This document shows positions 5,368-41,389 of a DNA stretch of 41,444 nt, piece after piece. The DNA is taken from positions 1 through 41,444 of IMG/VR virus record IMGVR_UViG_3300010411_000003. One strand, written 5' to 3'. Source of the stretch: a virus. The notes below the pieces were generated by a model that had not been told where the DNA came from, did not search any database, and worked only from the letters and a program-made list of their open reading frames with translations. The position numbers and the translations under genes are program-made. Numbering within the stretch: position 1 is the stretch's first letter; each line of letters opens with the position of its first letter.

Positions 5368-5814
5368 TTACCTCCATTTACATTCACAAAGATGAGCTTT
5401 GTTGAGGAGCTTCTCAATCAGCTCCTCTTTGGTTTTCTCCAATAATCTTGTCTTACACACAATACAGTAAGGTCTTGAGTGTAGCTCCCTTTTAGCACCA
5501 GCCTGTCTTGCTTCTTGAACTGTACAGCCATGTGCTCGCAAGTGTGGCTCACCCTTCTTCCTGTCATAATTGACAGCTTTCATATGATAAGCCTCCTCTG
5601 ACAGGTGTCCACATAGTTTACATTTAATATGAGCTATAACATGGTATTCTTTTAATGTAGCATAAGCCTTTTGCTGCCTTGGCTTGGGTGGGGTCTTGGG
5701 CTTAGTAGGGGAGGCTGGTTTAAATCCCATCTTCTTGGCCATTGCTTGCTCAGTTACAGACAGGACATCCCAGTTCTCTTTCTTGATAGTCCTTGAGATT
5801 GTTTCCTCTGTCAT
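5368..5814 (-). CDS. putative zinc-binding protein (148 aa)
   Basis: A 148-residue protein with three parts: an N-terminal helix, a Lys/Pro linker (PASPTKPKTPPKPRQQK), and a Cys/His-rich domain. The CxxC pairs are CKLCG and CIVCK, with further Cys/His at HGCT and HLCEC. The first pair starts a treble-clef or zinc-ribbon-like unit, AHIKCKLCGHLSEEAYHM. AAAGGAGC lies before the ATG. Function unknown; nucleic-acid binding is a reasonable guess from the fold type and basic linker. Confidence 0.65.
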   Translation of the reverse strand: MTEETISRTIKKENWDVLSVTEQAMAKKMGFKPASPTKPKTPPKPRQQKAYATLKEYHVIAHIKCKLCGHLSEEAYHMKAVNYDRKKGEPHLRAHGCTVQEARQAGAKRELHSRPYCIVCKTRLLEKTKEELIEKLLNKAHLCECKWR

Positions 5815-6596: not shown

Positions 6597-6623
6597 AAGA
6601 TTGATTAATAATTGTTCAAACTT
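6597..6623. repeat. dispersed palindrome, copy 2
   Basis: AAGATTGA and TCAAACTT around an AT-rich centre, one mismatch in the arms. Intergenic, 5' of the gene starting at 6578 on the minus strand. Confidence 0.8.
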
Positions 6624-6640
6624 GGTTATTACATATTACC

Positions 6641-6847
6641 TTATTTACTGGGTACTCTGAACCAAAACTTATCACTTATTTTATCATAATACTTTGCGTA
6701 TTTGCAGATATGTGATAAGCCCATAAATCTTGCTGCCTCAACTCCGCTTTTAATGGTGGGCGGGTTGATCTTACCAAGTTTGCAGCGTCTTATTGAATAG
6801 CTGTAATGCTCACACTTCGAACACTTCCTTATTTCTCTTTCAGTCAT
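6641..6847 (-). CDS. small Cys-rich protein, first gene of the leftward operon (68 aa)
   Basis: A 68-residue basic protein starting MTEREIRKCSKCEHYSYS. The cysteines (CSKC, RCKLG, HICKY) form a pattern like small phage zinc proteins where CxxCxHYxxSIRRCKLG binds metal. GAAAGGAGC precedes the ATG. It is the first gene downstream of the predicted promoter at 6912-6940, so it is likely expressed very early. Function unknown. Confidence 0.7.
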   Translation of the reverse strand: MTEREIRKCSKCEHYSYSIRRCKLGKINPPTIKSGVEAARFMGLSHICKYAKYYDKISDKFWFRVPSK

Positions 6848-6960: not shown

Positions 6961-7436
6961 TGTACGCATGTACGAAAATTTATTTTTCATAATAAAATCA
7001 ACATGTTACAACCCAGCTTGTACGCTGTACGTGTAGGTGTACGGTGTACGGTGTACAATGGTCCCGTTTTGTTAATCAAACTTAGATAATGTAGCTTAAA
7101 TACTCTAAGTACCATATTTTTCCTTAGTCTTATTAAGATATATATTATAATATATTTATATATATATACTTAAAGGTAAAGGGCTTAAAGGGATTAAGCT
7201 TACAGCTTCTAAGTTTGATTACTAAAACAAAAGGGTATGTGTTAGGACGGTGTACACCGTACAAACGTACAACGTACAACTTAGAACAAATATCCAATAA
7301 AATCAATACGTTACGCCCATTTCGTACACCGTACAAAAATACACGGAAACGGCTTGGTATGCCTCCTTAGCCATAACCCATTGAAATCATTGAATAAATT
7401 GCATTCCCGTACATATGTACACATTGTACACCGTAC
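6961..7436. other. GTAC repeat array around an AT-rich core; candidate replication origin
   Basis: This non-coding stretch carries about 17 GTAC-centred sites in clusters with 7-8 base spacing: 6962-6973, 7020-7056, 7252-7277, 7324-7334 and 7409-7436. The clearest unit is GGTGTAC, present as three perfect tandem copies at 7036-7056. Right of the core the same unit appears mainly in the opposite orientation, as GTACACCGTACA. Between the two sides lies an extremely AT-rich run (about 7131-7172). Iterons flanking an easily melted core are typical of replication origins that bind an initiator; an operator array is the alternative. No protein-coding gene is supported between 6848 and 7522. Confidence 0.6.
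7073..7221. repeat. 14-base inverted repeat enclosing the AT-rich core
   Basis: TAATCAAACTTAGA at 7073-7086 is the exact reverse complement of TCTAAGTTTGATTA at 7208-7221. The two arms look like the halves of the dispersed palindrome, in outward order, and enclose the AT-rich segment of the putative origin. Confidence 0.7.
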
Positions 7437-7453
7437 AGGCTTAGTTAGTTATT

Positions 7454-7480
7454 AAGATTGAATAATTATTGTTCAAACTT
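7454..7480. repeat. dispersed palindrome, copy 3
   Basis: AAGATTGA and TCAAACTT around an AT-rich centre. It lies between the stop of the gene at 7523 and the GTAC array. Confidence 0.8.
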
Positions 7481-7522: not shown

Positions 7523-7924
7523 TTACTTGGTTTGGTACAGCTTGTCATACATTACCTGGGCCTGTTCCTCAGTTAATTCCAACTTCGCCGCTTCCTCAAA
7601 GAACACCTCAAACGTGGGCTTTCTGACACCGCCGCCGCTGCCGCCTGGTTTGTTCCACTGTCCTGCTACAAGCCTGTCGTAAGTCTCAGTCATGTCTTTA
7701 ATCTTCATTTCGTCACTGGCCCCTTTACCAATACCTGCAATGGAGTCAGCAAGTTTCTGCTTCAGGCCGTAGTAGGTAACCATTTGCTGGGCTTCTGTCA
7801 TGTTCTTGAAGTCAGGGAATAGGGCGATTAGGTCAAACTTTGCCGGCTTACCCTGTACTCCAGTGTACATTGCGTAGCTCCCATCTAACTTCCAACTTGC
7901 CTTCTTCTTGGTTTCTGTAGTCAT
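7523..7924 (-). CDS. hypothetical early protein with its own strong promoter (133 aa)
   Basis: A 133-residue soluble protein starting MTTETKKKASWKLDGSYAMY. It is mostly helical, with a Gly-rich linker (NKPGGSGGGVRKP) near residues 90-100 and a C-terminal helical hairpin (FFEEAAKLELTEEQAQVMYD). I cannot name a family. GGAGGT lies five bases before the ATG and a near-consensus promoter lies about 90 bases upstream, so it is probably made early and abundantly. Its place beside the candidate origin would suit a DNA-binding or replication-accessory protein (inference from position only). It is more GC-rich than the neighbouring early genes. Confidence 0.75.
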   Translation of the reverse strand: MTTETKKKASWKLDGSYAMYTGVQGKPAKFDLIALFPDFKNMTEAQQMVTYYGLKQKLADSIAGIGKGASDEMKIKDMTETYDRLVAGQWNKPGGSGGGVRKPTFEVFFEEAAKLELTEEQAQVMYDKLYQTK

Positions 7925-8016
7925 AGTTTACCTCCATAGTTAGTGCAGGCTATGACTACTCAGGCATAGGATAAATAATTTAAATTTTCAAAGAGCAATT
8001 TTGATCATTTGTCTCA

Positions 8017-8045
8017 ATCATACCAGCAATTTTTCAATTTGTCAA
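8017..8045 (-). promoter_or_regulatory. strong extended -10 sigma70 promoter, leftward
   Basis: On the minus strand, TTGACA (8040-8045), 17 bases, then TGG-TATGAT with the -10 at 8017-8022. A perfect -35, an extended -10 TGn and a five-of-six -10. It drives the gene at 7523-7924. Confidence 0.75.
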
Positions 8046-8262
8046 GTTATTTTTTAACTTATTGAAATCATTGGATATTCTCACGAGTGTTACATTGTGG
8101 TACATGGTGAAATGCCTGGCATAACTACCAGCAATTAGGTATAATTACATATAATTATCCAAGGCCCCTATGACCCCCTTAGGCACTTTCGCTTTATATT
8201 GATACGGTACTCTTTTACACAAGCATAGAAAATAAAATGAGTTACTTAGTTCCAATACAAGC

Positions 8263-8279
8263 ATCAAAATAATTTTGAT
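8263..8279. promoter_or_regulatory. 17-bp perfect palindrome, possible operator
   Basis: ATCAAAAT-A-ATTTTGAT, a perfect inverted repeat 16 bases upstream of the -35 of the rightward promoter. The placement suits an activator or repressor site. The rest of the 464-base gap between 7925 and 8388 holds only promoters and AT-rich sequence. Confidence 0.5.
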
Positions 8280-8295
8280 AGGTGGTGGATTTTGC

Positions 8296-8324
8296 TTGAC
8301 TCCTTGGATATTTTATGCTATATA
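8296..8324 (+). promoter_or_regulatory. sigma70-like promoter for the late genes
   Basis: TTGACT (8296-8301), a 17-base spacer and TATATA (8319-8324), about 65 bases before the first rightward gene. It is the best rightward promoter in the gap. Confidence 0.6.
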
Positions 8325-8388
8325 GGAGTATGAATGATGTAAGCTTTAATGAACTAATGACTACATGAATTGATGAAGAGAGAACTGG

Positions 8389-8850
8389 ATGGGTAAGAAT
8401 CTAATAGATGTAGACCCTGAGACCCTTTGGGACCTTGGAATGAGGGGCCTGACGCAGAAGCAAGCTTCGCAAGAGCTGGGGATTTCTGAATCAACTCTGT
8501 CGAGAAGGCTGGCTAATATTCAAACAAAGCAAGGCCTCCTCATGAAATATAGAGCTCTCCAATCGCTGCAACTAACTGAGCTTCAAGCAAGAGTCCTTGA
8601 AGCAATTACTCCAGGAAAGATCAACGAAGCCCCGCTGAAAGATTTAATTACTTGTTTTAAAATCCTGAAAGATAAAGAGCTTGTTATTGAGGGAAAGCCC
8701 TCAGAGATTAAGGGATTGGTAGGTTATCTGGTAGAATTGGAGAAGAAAGAGTTTGAGCTGAATGTTAAAGTGGACAGTAAAGCTGTTGATGAAGTCATTG
8801 AGATGAGTAAGGATATTAACAATGAAGATTATATTCCAGATCTAGATTAA
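8389..8850 (+). CDS. putative small terminase subunit (HTH protein, 153 aa)
   Basis: Likely recognises the phage packaging site and hands DNA to the large terminase. The N-terminus (about residues 15-45) is a helix-turn-helix, GLTQKQASQELGISESTLSR, followed by long charged helices suited to oligomerisation and an acidic tail (INNEDYIPDLD). Length, HTH plus helical core, and its position as the first late gene two genes before the large terminase all fit a small terminase. The family cannot be fixed by eye, and a transcriptional regulator is the alternative. The ribosome site (GAAGAGAGAAC) is weak. Confidence 0.6.
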   Translation: MGKNLIDVDPETLWDLGMRGLTQKQASQELGISESTLSRRLANIQTKQGLLMKYRALQSLQLTELQARVLEAITPGKINEAPLKDLITCFKILKDKELVIEGKPSEIKGLVGYLVELEKKEFELNVKVDSKAVDEVIEMSKDINNEDYIPDLD

Positions 8851-9628: not shown

Positions 9629-12133
9629 ATGAATCCGAGAATACTTGAAAAGTTAGCACTGTGGAAGCAAAGCCCATTGACATTTGTCACTGAGGCAATT
9701 GGAGCTACGCCTTCTGAGCAGCAGATTGAAGCGCTGGTTAACTTTCCTAAGACCAAACGGCTGACAATCAGGAGTGGTCATGGTTGCCATGCTGCAGGTA
9801 CTATTGTACTTATGGCTAATGGTACTTGTAAATTAGTTGAGGATGTTAAGATTGGTGATCAACTTATGGGGAATGATAGTGCATCAAGAAATGTACTGGA
9901 ACTATATAGAGGAAGAGAACAGATGTATAGAATCCAGTATTATGATGGGACTTATTATGATGTAAATGCTTCGCATAAATTGGCTTTAAGAGCTTGTAGA
10001 GATAAGAACGGATTTAAGAAAGGGGATATAACTGTAGTTACTGTTAAAGATTATCTTAATTGGAATGAAACTGATAAAAGAACTAATCTTGGGTTTAAAG
10101 AAGCAGTTGAACTTCCGGAAATACCAGTGATAATTCCTCCTTATATTCTGGGTTTATGGCTTGGTGATGGGTGGCATAATAGACCAGCATTTACTTCAGT
10201 TGATAAAGATATTATAAGAATTCTTAGGTTATACGCAGGAGATCTTGGATTAAACTTTGAAACAAGAGACGATGGTAAAAGCCATTATATAAGTCCTGGG
10301 TTAATTGGAAAAGCTGGACAAAATGTATTCTTGGAAGGTCTTAAAGCATATGATCTTATTGGTAATAAGCATATACCAATACATTATTTGCTTAATTCAA
10401 AGGAGAATAGATTACATCTGCTTGCAGGACTTTTGGATAGCGATGGGTGGCTTGATCCTAGAAATAAAAGAGTATTTGAAATTACTCAAAAAAGAGAAGA
10501 TCTTGCTCAAGATATACTGTTTCTTGCTCAATCAGTTGGATGTCATGCTACTGTTAAAGCTGTAACTAAAACTTGGAGAAGCAATGGAGAGTTACAGCAA
10601 AATACTTATTATAGAATAAACATATCAAGAAATACAGATATAATTCCTACACAACTTTTGAGAAAAAAGGCTGTTCAAACCGAGTTTGGGTCAAATCTTA
10701 ATTTTGGTTTTAAAGTTATTCCTTTAGAGGAAGATAATTATTATGGCTTTGAGGTTGACGGGAATCATCTTTATATGTTAGCAGATTTTACTGTTACAAG
10801 AAATACAGGAAAGGATGCCTGTGCAAGTTGGATTGTTCTCTGGTTCATGACTACCAGGGCATACCCGAAAGTTGTCTGTACAGCACCCACAGCTAGGCAG
10901 CTTGCGGATATTCTCTGGAGTGAGATCTCGAAGTGGTTAAGAAAGTCTATTCTAACTGATGAATTTATCCTTCAGAAAGACAAAATGTTCCATAAAGATG
11001 CTCCTAAGGAATGGTGGTGCAGAGCAGTTAGTCCTTCAGTAAAGGCGAGTAAGGAGGAGCAGGCTGAAACTCTAGCTGGGTTTCACGGGGATCATCTGTT
11101 GATTATTGCTGATGAGGCAAGTGGTATTCCTGATCCTGTTTATATCCCACTGGAAGGTGCCATGACGCAGGAGGATAATAAAGTCTTGCTGATTGGAAAC
11201 ATGACTCGAAATACAGGATATTTTTATGACACTCACTTTCATAATGAAATTAGGAAAGATTGGAAAAGATTGCACTGGGATAGTCGTTATTCCTCTAATG
11301 TTGATCCCTCTTATCCCAAGTATATGGCTACTAAATACGGCGAGGAAAGTAATGTATTCAGGATTAGGGTCACTGGAGATCCTCCCCTTGATGCTGAGAA
11401 TACCCTTATTCCGCTTGCTTGGGCTCTTCAGTGTATTGGAAATGAGACTCTTGATAATCCAGAGGAGCCTCTTTACCTCGGTGTGGACGTTGCAAGGTAT
11501 GGAGAAGATAAGTCCATTATACTTCCGAGGCAGGGATTAAAGATTTTGCCTTGGGAAGAATTCAGTGGAATGAATACAATAAGTTTAGCTGGTCATGTTG
11601 TTAAGACATTTAACGAACTTAAAGCTGAAGGTGCTGGCGTAGATGAAATTGGTGTAGGCGCTGGGGTTATTGACTGGCTTCATAAGAAACCTGATGGACA
11701 CAGAATCTTTCATGGTATTAGTACTTCTAATTCAAGTAGTGATATTACTAAGTATAACAGATTAAGAGATGAGCTCTGGGTAATGATGAGGGAGAAGTGC
11801 ATGAAGATGCAATATTCATTTCCAGCTGGAACTAAGCTTGAAGAGGAAATGAGTAATGAGCTCTGTAATGAATTGGCTGCTCCAACTTATGACTTTAATC
11901 TTCAAGGTGGGTATAAGGTGGAAAGTAAAAGGCAGATGAAGATAAGGGGAGTTGCAAGTCCAAATATTGCAGATGCTTTAGGTTTAACAGAATATTTCTA
12001 TAATATAGCTTTTAATTTATGGGGAAAGCTGAATATTCATGAGAGGAAGAAGAAATCAGTCCAGCCTGTGCCAAGTAATTATGGGAAGCCAGGACCTGGG
12101 TCAAAGAAAGATAGAAATTGGATGGCTGCATAA
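9629..12133 (+). CDS. terL: large terminase subunit, interrupted by an intein
   Basis: ATP-driven motor and nuclease that packages phage DNA through the portal. The precursor is 834 residues. Residues 1-52 and 393-834 are terminase, giving a normal 494-residue enzyme after splicing. The intein splits the Walker A loop: GHG before it joins TGKDA after it. Further motifs are Walker B (LLIIADEASG, about residue 490) and a RNase H-like nuclease with LGVDVARYGEDKS (about 617), DEIGVGAGV and a final ADALGLTEYF (about 780). Unlike most genes here it has no Shine-Dalgarno; a palindrome lies directly against the ATG, and an in-frame TAA upstream excludes an earlier start. The protein groups by eye with terminases of P22/Bcep22-like podoviruses, but a search is needed to place it. 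Confidence 0.92.
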   Translation: MNPRILEKLALWKQSPLTFVTEAIGATPSEQQIEALVNFPKTKRLTIRSGHGCHAAGTIVLMANGTCKLVEDVKIGDQLMGNDSASRNVLELYRGREQMYRIQYYDGTYYDVNASHKLALRACRDKNGFKKGDITVVTVKDYLNWNETDKRTNLGFKEAVELPEIPVIIPPYILGLWLGDGWHNRPAFTSVDKDIIRILRLYAGDLGLNFETRDDGKSHYISPGLIGKAGQNVFLEGLKAYDLIGNKHIPIHYLLNSKENRLHLLAGLLDSDGWLDPRNKRVFEITQKREDLAQDILFLAQSVGCHATVKAVTKTWRSNGELQQNTYYRINISRNTDIIPTQLLRKKAVQTEFGSNLNFGFKVIPLEEDNYYGFEVDGNHLYMLADFTVTRNTGKDACASWIVLWFMTTRAYPKVVCTAPTARQLADILWSEISKWLRKSILTDEFILQKDKMFHKDAPKEWWCRAVSPSVKASKEEQAETLAGFHGDHLLIIADEASGIPDPVYIPLEGAMTQEDNKVLLIGNMTRNTGYFYDTHFHNEIRKDWKRLHWDSRYSSNVDPSYPKYMATKYGEESNVFRIRVTGDPPLDAENTLIPLAWALQCIGNETLDNPEEPLYLGVDVARYGEDKSIILPRQGLKILPWEEFSGMNTISLAGHVVKTFNELKAEGAGVDEIGVGAGVIDWLHKKPDGHRIFHGISTSNSSSDITKYNRLRDELWVMMREKCMKMQYSFPAGTKLEEEMSNELCNELAAPTYDFNLQGGYKVESKRQMKIRGVASPNIADALGLTEYFYNIAFNLWGKLNIHERKKKSVQPVPSNYGKPGPGSKKDRNWMAA
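9785..10804 (+). mobile_element. LAGLIDADG intein in the terminase Walker A loop (340 aa)
   Basis: Self-splicing protein element with a homing endonuclease. It starts at C53 (CHAAGTIVLMANGTCKLVED, block A) with a block B histidine in NASHKLAL. Two LAGLIDADG motifs follow, ILGLWLGDG (about residue 173) and LLAGLLDSDG (about 264). It ends in block F/G, GFEVDGNHLYMLADFTVTRN, with the terminal Asn and Thr as the +1 residue. The penultimate residue is Arg in place of the usual His, which occurs in some active inteins but can slow splicing. Both endonuclease acidic residues are present, so it could still be mobile. Confidence 0.92.
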
Positions 12134-38989: not shown

Positions 38990-41389
38990 TTAAATTTCTT
39001 CAAGTTCTCCCCAACTTGGCCCAGCTGCAAAGTCAACATCTATAATAAATTCTACTCCTTGGTATTCAAGAGGATAGGTCATACATTCTCTAAGCATACC
39101 AATAGATTCCTCTCTGTTATGCTGGCCAAGTGGAGATAGTATATAGATAGCATCATGTAGCTGAAGAGCTATTATTCTTTCTTTACCATAGTTTTTATAG
39201 AATGTAACAAGGGATTTATTAAGGAGATCTCCTACAGTTGACTGAGGTATGTATGAATAAGCACTTCGGAATAGAGTATCTCCCCATCGATCAAGAAATC
39301 TATGGCTTCTTCCAATTAAGTTAGTTAAAGTCATGTCCTTAGCCAGTTTATTACGAATAGTAGTATGCCATATGCTTAGCTGAGGACAGATGTTATGATA
39401 AATCTGGTTAAGTTTTTTAGCTTCTGGAAGGGAGCAGCCGAGGCGATGGGCTGTTACAGCAGGACCGGCAGAATAGTTATTAGCATGACGAAGAGTCTTG
39501 CCAATTTTTCGCTGAGGTTTAGTAACAACTACTAATGGTATCTGGAACATATCTGATGCTGTATGAAGGTGAACATCAAGAAAGTTTTCTTTTCTATATT
39601 CTCTGTCTTTACCATAAGCTTGTTCAAACAGAGCTATTAATTTGTTGTCGTTAATAATGTAAGCAACAACAACTGCTTCGGCTTGGATATAGTCTGCCTG
39701 AATAAACTCATATCCTTTAGGAGCTTTATACATTGTTCGAGCGATCTTTGGGATATTCTGTAAGTTTCCAGATCCGTATGGTAGAATAATTGATTTGCTT
39801 GAAGACCACCTTCCGAAGCTTCTAAATGATTCTTCTTCATCTATAACAAGTCCTTTCTTAATCTTCTGCATTGTTGCTCCAGTTACATTATAGGAAGTAT
39901 GAACCTTTCCTTCTGGAGATATTTTGGACAAACCTGTCTTCTTGTCTTTAAGTAGAACAAAGGAATTCTTGAGTTTATCCAGTTTTTTCCACTTAATTAC
40001 TTCAAGAAGAACAGGATTATTAGTTGTCCTTGCGAGTTTGGCAAGAGCTTCTTCGTCTGCTGTTCTCTTTCTTGGATCATTTACAGACTTTCTTCTTTTG
40101 TACTGAATAGGAAGACCAAGATCCTCATAAAGTAATTCCTGAAGTTGTTTGGAAGATCTTATATTTATAGTCTTCCCAAATTCTTGCTCAAGTTTATCAC
40201 CAAGTTCTTTAAGTTCTGTATCTATCTGAGCAAGAAGATCCTTTCTTGTCTTCAGATCTATTTTAAGTCCATTAAGTTGTAGCATAACTGCAGGCTCAAT
40301 CTGAGACATTTCGTGCTCAAAGATATGATACTGGTCAAGGCGGTATAGCTCCTTCTCAATTACTTTCCAGACGCCATAAGTGTTTACTGCATCAGCACAG
40401 TTATACAGCATTGGCATTGATTCTGAAGTACCTTTCCATGGAGGAACATTTAAGCAAATGCTTGCCATAAATCCAAGGGAGCGAGGTACTTCTGGCCAAG
40501 CTACATGAGCTGCAACCATTGTATCAGCAAACATATGAGCACAGTAAATGTTATAGTGATGCCATAGAACTGCCATATCGTAACAAGCATTGTGCATGAT
40601 TACTTGCTTTTCACTAAGAACTTTAGCAAGCAACTTCCACATCTCAAGTTCTTTGTCAAAGGACATAGTTGGTTTTCTGTTAGATAGGAATCTGAAAGAC
40701 ATTCCATGTATTGGAGATTCAGCTATACCAAGTATGTCTATGTGGGTGCCAGGCTGAGTTGTTTCAATGTCTAATGTAATTGGATCTTCATGGTCGTAAA
40801 GTAGATAGTGAAGGAAGTCCATAAATTCCCTGCGCGATGGAGAAGAATTTAGAACTCTCTTGTCTACTGGAAAGTCTGGAGTAGAAGAGTTGGCCTTTGC
40901 TTTTCTCAAATCCATTACAGTAGGCCATCTTAGTTTATATTCATAATCAGTCTTTTGTGGATGATAAGTAGCAAGAACCTTAACTCCTGGAACAAGGGCG
41001 CAGTCATAGATGTATCCTCTTGCAGCTGTTATTCCCTTCTCTCCAGTTAGATGATAAGATGCTGTATCTCCAAGAGCAACTATAATATTTGGTCTGTAAA
41101 ATTTTATTTCTTCAGTAAGTTCGCCAATCCACTCCTTAAGGATAGACTTAGGCATGGTCTTTTTCTTGTCTTCGTAGAAGAAGGCTATCTTGTTGCCTGG
41201 AGGTCTTTCTCTTGCAATGTTAGCAATAAGGCATTCAGGCTTGCTCAGCCCAGCAAGATTGAGAAGTTCACTAAGAACTCTGCCAGCATTACCAACAAAG
41301 GGTTTGCCTGTTGCTGCTTCTTGTTCTCCAGGGGCTTCGCCAACAAGCATGATAGCTGCACCAGGAGGTCCTACAGTAGGCACATACAT
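38990..41389 (-). CDS. polA: UDG-like domain fused to DNA polymerase I (799 aa)
   Basis: Main phage replicative polymerase. Residues 1-170 form a family-4-type uracil-DNA glycosylase fold: GEAPGEQEAATGKPFVGNAG, then LIANIARERPPGN, ALGDTASYHLTG and TYHPQ. Residues about 195-390 are a 3'-5' exonuclease with Exo I TLDIETT, Exo II HNACYD and Exo III CADAVNTYG, all complete. The palm and fingers follow: motif A QADYIQAEAVVVAY (about 565), motif B RKIGKTLRHANNYSAG (about 626) and motif C LQLHDAIYI (about 744). In motif C the common HDE is HDA, keeping the metal-binding Asp. UDG-polymerase fusion is known from SPO1-related phages. GAGGAGG precedes the ATG, which overlaps an upstream stop as TAATG. 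Confidence 0.92.
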   Translation of the reverse strand: MYVPTVGPPGAAIMLVGEAPGEQEAATGKPFVGNAGRVLSELLNLAGLSKPECLIANIARERPPGNKIAFFYEDKKKTMPKSILKEWIGELTEEIKFYRPNIIVALGDTASYHLTGEKGITAARGYIYDCALVPGVKVLATYHPQKTDYEYKLRWPTVMDLRKAKANSSTPDFPVDKRVLNSSPSRREFMDFLHYLLYDHEDPITLDIETTQPGTHIDILGIAESPIHGMSFRFLSNRKPTMSFDKELEMWKLLAKVLSEKQVIMHNACYDMAVLWHHYNIYCAHMFADTMVAAHVAWPEVPRSLGFMASICLNVPPWKGTSESMPMLYNCADAVNTYGVWKVIEKELYRLDQYHIFEHEMSQIEPAVMLQLNGLKIDLKTRKDLLAQIDTELKELGDKLEQEFGKTINIRSSKQLQELLYEDLGLPIQYKRRKSVNDPRKRTADEEALAKLARTTNNPVLLEVIKWKKLDKLKNSFVLLKDKKTGLSKISPEGKVHTSYNVTGATMQKIKKGLVIDEEESFRSFGRWSSSKSIILPYGSGNLQNIPKIARTMYKAPKGYEFIQADYIQAEAVVVAYIINDNKLIALFEQAYGKDREYRKENFLDVHLHTASDMFQIPLVVVTKPQRKIGKTLRHANNYSAGPAVTAHRLGCSLPEAKKLNQIYHNICPQLSIWHTTIRNKLAKDMTLTNLIGRSHRFLDRWGDTLFRSAYSYIPQSTVGDLLNKSLVTFYKNYGKERIIALQLHDAIYILSPLGQHNREESIGMLRECMTYPLEYQGVEFIIDVDFAAGPSWGELEEI

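Follow-up and report, generated by a model that had tools for sequence, protein, structure and literature searches.

The stretch analysed here, referred to as the window, is a virus record of 41,444 bases in which a dense array of GTAC sites is flanked by two leftward open reading frames (6641–6847 and 7523–7924). The latter, on the minus strand, encodes gp133, a small protein whose family adjoins the element and gave HMM matches in 68 reading frames. Genomes commonly carry two gp133 paralogues, of which one adjoins the element and the other lies near the ligase gene, and homologues also occur in Mel-JY34, MW202489 and VS-ABTNL-3. To the right of a divergent gap (7925–8388) lies a putative small terminase subunit (TerS; 8389–8850, plus strand), assigned from weak Pfam HTH matches, the family alignment and its position upstream of the large terminase, and composed of an N-terminal HTH followed by a conserved core. 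The large terminase (TerL; 9629–12133, plus strand) contains an intein at approximately 9785–10807; the corresponding residues (about 53–392), which match Hom_end_hint and LAGLIDADG domains, have no counterpart in relatives. The minus strand also encodes a DUF3987 ATPase ('DNA primase', phrog_14296; 36752–37981), a candidate helicase or initiator accompanying the element, and a fusion of an N-terminal uracil-DNA-glycosylase (UDG) domain with a family A DNA polymerase (PolA; 38990–41389). The interval between polymerase and ligase, about 5.7 kb long in the relative G015, is missing from the window, and an initiator gene could consequently be missing from the contig.

The array had been placed near the point where the two transcription directions diverge. 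It is indeed close to this point, yet it lies inside the leftward block, with the divergent gap 0.5–0.95 kb to its right. Similarly, the suggested GC-skew check located the array near a skew switch, but skew is confounded with gene direction here, so that a contribution of replication is not separable.

Architecture of the GTAC array

The 475 bases from 6962 to 7436 hold 18 GTAC sites, in line with the approximately 17 first reported for under 500 bases. The chance expectation of about two had been set too high: the whole window contains 121 GTAC compared with 78 ± 7 in shuffled sequences, which corresponds to roughly 0.9 per 475 bases. The left outer arm (6962–7057) carries GTAC at 6962, 6970, 7020, 7027, 7039, 7046 and 7053, and includes six copies of TGTACG reading towards the core, among them the three tandem GGTGTAC copies at 7036–7056, which a direct count reproduced. 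The right outer arm consists of three clusters, at 7251–7279 (GTAC at 7252, 7259, 7267 and 7274), 7323–7336 (sequence CGTACACCGTACAA) and 7407–7438 (GTAC at 7409, 7417, 7426 and 7433). Clusters are separated by 50–143 bases, and the GTAC at 7109 is isolated. The spacing of 7–8 bases described earlier thus applies approximately within clusters, where the steps are mostly 7–9 bases, but not to the 12-base step from 7027 to 7039. Direct repeats at regular spacing, as in iteron origins, are accordingly present.

The orientation of the sites, previously called mostly inverted, proved to be stricter than that. TGTACG occurs six times on the left and CGTACA seven times on the right, with no copy facing the wrong way; outside the array, the window holds no further TGTACG and only two further CGTACA. 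In a contig-wide scan the array was also the best 500-base window for mirrored repeats, with 82 inverted 7-mer pairs against 29 for the runner-up. Rfam and tRNA scans returned no match. Just beyond the right arm a palindrome, TTGAATAATTATTGTTCAA in the window (7455–7480 and 6601–6625), was noted by eye only. The same palindrome was seen, again by eye only, in several relatives (among L053, L081, L021 and L057) as GGTCAATAATTGACC then TTTCTTAG; it is possibly an operator.

Between the arms, the run at 7131–7172 is as extremely AT-rich as first described (A/T at 40 of 42 positions) and adjoins the repeat region, as the AT-rich stretch of an iteron origin does; it is the proposed unwinding element. 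An inner inverted repeat, absent from the first-pass annotation, sits between the iterons and this core: the left inner arm (7066–7093, plus) pairs with its reverse complement in the right inner arm (7201–7228, minus) over 28 nt with 82% complementarity. In combination with the mirrored outer arms, this makes the whole element one large imperfect palindrome. When folded as single-stranded DNA, the element reached -74 kcal/mol compared with -45 ± 4.4 kcal/mol for shuffled sequences (z -6.5). CTNAG words seem enriched in the inner arms, with 8 found and 1.3 expected in G013 and 5 against 1.2 in the window; some of the elements listed below lack this enrichment.

The two inner sides differ in base composition, the 90 bases to the left of the core being pyrimidine-rich (purine fraction 0.44) and the right side purine-rich (0.59). 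This purine bias opposes the locally pyrimidine-rich plus strand of the leftward genes. In all 17 elements listed, the strand read from the core towards the outside is rich in purines. The bias of 10 of these ranks among the top 0.6% of positions in their contig, and that of the window at 4%; only its sign is informative, since mirrored arms must differ in composition.

Conservation of layout and turnover of iterons in related phages

An exact search of IMG/VR with one array word returned three stretches, and in two of them, L024/G006 and L026 (identical DNA where compared), the same architecture was found at the same place. No relative was found by a search with gp133 alone, or by blastn of the array region against named phages. 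Alignment of terS assembled 57 viral loci together with three contigs from metagenome-assembled bacterial genomes. In these relatives mirrored arrays recur beside the gp133-family gene, upstream of terS, built from other letters: GGTTAC in L072, GGTGAAC in L081, a GTGTAA-type word in L083, GTAAC in L047 and L053, and ATGCAG in L068. GTACACC, the motif suggested for a scan of related phages, is thus not conserved in its letters, and the iterons drift (GTGTAC, GGTGAAC, GGTTAC, GTAAC, ATGCAG) within a layout that stays the same.

Because GTAC density misses relatives with changed iteron letters, inverted 7-mer pairs other than AT-only words were counted in the best 500 bases of a stretch of up to 2 kb adjoining the gp133 copy near terS, and compared with 200 dinucleotide shuffles per locus. 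The 29 loci were our own choice of terS-proximal copies among the 68 HMM matches, after removal of duplicate loci per contig, and include G020, where the gp133 copy lies about 7 kb from terS. Fourteen of them scored above all 200 shuffles and four more at 1–3 of 200, leaving 11 that were not significant. For G017, one of the 14, the score stems from a smaller, adjacent mirrored repeat; the main array of this genome (47930–48290) lies on the other side of gp133, between gp133 and terS. Seven of the 11 non-significant loci had fewer than 1,000 bases available, while G005, G016 and G023 are long contigs; G005 and G016 appear mirrored by eye despite their score. Conversely, none of 10 genomes scored above all 100 shuffles at the distant gp133 paralogue, which served as the control. 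Checked against the refutation proposed for it, loss of the array in relatives that share the replication genes, the origin reading mostly survives, the exceptions being the 11 of 29 relatives without a significant signal, several of which are truncated.

The best 6-mer runs one way in each arm in 15 of 17 elements, a count that is selected, because the displayed 6-mer is the best of all per element. Both the test and visual inspection guided the choice of the 17, among which are G005 (18/200 shuffles as good), G015 (2/200) and L065 (3/200). TATATA-type cores are present in most of them.

Association with the replication module

A tblastn search with the DUF3987 protein identified 23 named phage records, including the genus Jamesmcgillvirus (PaP2, 119X, PaMx41), Kuura and Mel-JY34; 12 of the 23 records were retrieved whole and two in part. 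Group profiles of DUF3987, PolA and the exonuclease matched nine of nine named genomes, whereas those of TerL, TerS, portal and capsid matched none of the nine at E ≤ 1. In the gene-free gap of these phages, a mirrored element above all 300 shuffles was detected in 9 of 11 records, with the reservation that the 11 gaps were chosen after viewing and that five of the records belong to one genus. In FBPa48, one of 300 shuffles was as good. For VS-ABTNL-3 the outcome depended on the treatment of AT-only words: with these excluded, four pairs were found and 263/300 shuffles were as good, and with these counted, 37 pairs and 0/300. Counting AT-only words weakened the result for the five Jamesmcgillvirus records (2–9/300). 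No element was seen in OP947158, which lies outside the 11-record shuffle test. Examples of the mirrored words are GGGCAGTT/AACTGCCC in Kuura and those of the TGCATTTT/AAAATGCA type in vir526.

The element is thus kept where the replication genes are homologous and the packaging genes are not, and in this sense it follows the replication module. The case for an origin rests mainly on this association.

The same data bear on the nearest alternative, a genome-end or concatemer-processing site, in which the palindrome marks the terminase-made left end of the packaged genome, its hairpin may help to duplicate the terminal repeat, and the arms are conserved for their self-complementarity. A pac or cos site would be expected to be kept with its own terminase. 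Instead, the element is found in 9 of 11 records while the terminase profiles match 0 of 9 genomes, and a terminase recognition site would not be expected to persist, as the element does, in phages whose TerL, TerS, portal and capsid show no detectable homology. A hairpin, moreover, needs no tandem one-way iterons. Still, the element adjoins terS, its single strand folds strongly, the HTH of TerS is more variable than the TerS core, and in Mel-JY34 and MW202554 long inverted repeats take the place of iterons, all of which agree with a genome end.

A separate observation concerns G028, an unrelated GC-rich phage of 43.7 kb (L025 4590–4870 corresponds to G028 35450–35730), where nested mirrored arrays, the outer of TGTTCAG and the inner of GTGTAC, lie between the terminase and a gene for a Prim-Pol/VapE-like helicase. 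These arrays suggest that the mirrored design arose more than once.

Genome ends at or near the element

Direct terminal repeats of 606 bases have been determined with PhageTerm for the distantly related Caulobacter phage Kuura, according to the portion of the report consulted (PMC9959647). In the Kuura record positions 1–606 equal 43208–43813, which places the left end between the core (43141–43159) and the right iterons (43241, 43314). The start of the repeat at 43208 thus puts one mapped genome end within an element. Contig ends also cluster in this region: 12 of 26 non-circular contigs of at least 15 kb terminate in the 3 kb upstream of terS, compared with 2.8 expected (the count drew on 29 contigs of at least 15 kb, including L045 and L046, apparently the same phage). 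The mapped ends come from a single phage, however, and the contig ends may merely reflect repeats breaking assembly. Likewise, the first base of the PaP2, 119X and PaMx41 records falls inside the element, but it is one and the same homologous base in all three, which is therefore possibly a copied rotation. For Shea, a relative of PaP2, 'terminally redundant ends' by PhageTerm were reported without positions (PMC13348215), and the parts of PMC12747347 and PMC9503643 consulted name no genome ends for phages related to the window.

On balance, an element that serves only to define the packaged end is considered unlikely. In parvoviruses, the terminal hairpins combine origin and genome end in one element, and by analogy a comparable logic could apply here. 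Such a double function would join the association with the replication module, the Kuura end and the palindrome; it is regarded as improbable. Both readings were retained because of the mapped Kuura end inside an element and the record and contig ends of relatives nearby.

Candidate initiator proteins

The absence of a known initiator gene, remarked on earlier, was confirmed for the window proteins searched, none of which belongs to an initiator family. DnaA boxes (TTWTNCACA) number two in the window and none in the element, with 5.2 expected, and hence do not indicate a DnaA-dependent origin. The AlphaFold2 model of gp133 (pLDDT 90.6) gave no structural match in the PDB or among viral structures at E ≤ 0.001. 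No gene was found that is exclusive to the two GTGTAC-type phages and thereby singles out an initiator; the frame at 5368–5814 has weak matches elsewhere.

Of the candidates, the DUF3987 protein is the one shared most widely. Its C-terminal region, which to our eye looks like a winged helix, is conserved (50% over residues 345–400), too much so for this region alone to explain the changing iteron letters. The PaMx41 record annotates an HHPred similarity of the DUF3987 'primase' to archaeal ORC2. At the level of sequence this similarity was not reproduced: a profile search against the sequences of solved structures, ORC/Cdc6 being the type sought, gave no ORC match at E ≤ 1. In TerS, mean identity is 45% for the HTH and 72% for the core (n = 14), and a variable HTH of this kind would also fit the turnover of the iterons. 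Relatives encode, in the replication block, a fusion of ParB_N, an HTH and an N6/N4 DNA methyltransferase (L086 3910–5226, minus strand), which is conserved in 12 contigs. When the HTH of this fusion, the DUF3987 C-terminus and the TerS HTH were considered for co-variation, none tracked the iterons convincingly.

The ParB_N-methyltransferase, with its HTH conserved in 12 group contigs, is one reason to consider that the element could instead be a regulatory, partition or episome-maintenance site of the early gene block, either an operator cluster or a centromere-like array. Early leftward genes lie on both sides of the element, and Shea, reported as an episomal pseudolysogen (PMC13348215), persists as an episome. 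Against this, the iteron words hardly occur in the rest of the genome, no promoter-like site was found inside the element, and the HTH of the ParB-methyltransferase is no more variable than the remaining protein (47% compared with 48–53% identity). A role of this kind is judged highly improbable.

Proposed function

The element is probably, though by no means certainly, a mirrored-iteron replication origin of the DUF3987 ATPase and UDG-PolA module, acting with a putative phage-coded initiator. The probable origin named in the first-pass annotation is thus partly supported, by layout, position and recurrence with the replication genes, whereas the Kuura end inside the element speaks against a pure origin. 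Protein binding, unwinding, initiation and bidirectionality at this site are inferred. A phage-coded initiator would bind the one-way iterons of both outer arms, and the two mirrored nucleoprotein arms would then strain the AT core between them until it opens. One helicase could subsequently be loaded per strand, so that two forks would leave in opposite directions.

A more comprehensive proposal, tentative and less likely than not as a whole, is that a widespread DUF3987 ATPase and PolA module relies on a mirrored-iteron origin of constant layout, with recognition letters that differ from nearly every species to the next. The arms would change in concert, either because the palindrome lets one arm convert the other or in an arms race with origin-targeting satellites or defences, and the same site would set the packaged genome end.

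No description of origins in phages with this replication module was found in the literature searched, in which subscription journals were mostly uncovered, and such origins thus appear undescribed so far. The element marks a well-defined locus at which the idea can be tested in cultivated phages, namely the Pseudomonas phages of the PaP2/PaMx41 genus, the Caulobacter phage Kuura and the Microcystis phage Mel-JY34. Its natural iteron variants constitute a set in which co-variation could point to the initiator, and it provides a case of an origin with fast-changing recognition letters but a stable architecture.

Comparison with known systems

Theta-plasmid and lambdoid (lambda O type) iteron origins resemble the present element in that, within a replication region, short-repeat arrays adjoin AT-rich sequence. 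Here, however, the iterons are 6–9 bases long, are mirrored on both sides of the core, and have no recognised initiator gene close by. Archaeal oriC places inverted ORB boxes around an unwinding element, and the mirrored boxes around an AT core are comparable in layout; the DUF3987 profile search gave no ORC relative. For T7 concatemers, a hairpin has reportedly been proposed to have a role in duplicating the terminal repeat, and the palindrome near the terminal-repeat boundary of Kuura recalls such a junction with direct terminal repeats. Unlike the T7 junction, the present element carries tandem iterons and is kept alongside non-homologous terminases.

Herpes simplex OriS, as described in the part of PMC12543377 consulted, has inverted initiator boxes on either side of an AT-rich spacer and is hairpin-capable, both of which are paralleled here with no homology implied; OriS has three boxes and one known helicase initiator, whereas the present element has many tandem sites and no known initiator. 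Changing origin iterons are shared with the PLE satellite of Vibrio cholerae, where, according to the sections consulted of PMC8263062, the iterons of the RepA/ori system change together with the DNA-binding domain of the initiator and are targets in an arms race. The PLE iterons described there are semi-palindromic, about 30 bp long and have a known RepA, whereas the co-varying protein was not found here. The element may accordingly be likened to the OriS, archaeal and PLE origins as an analogy of layout, rather than as a member of any of these families.
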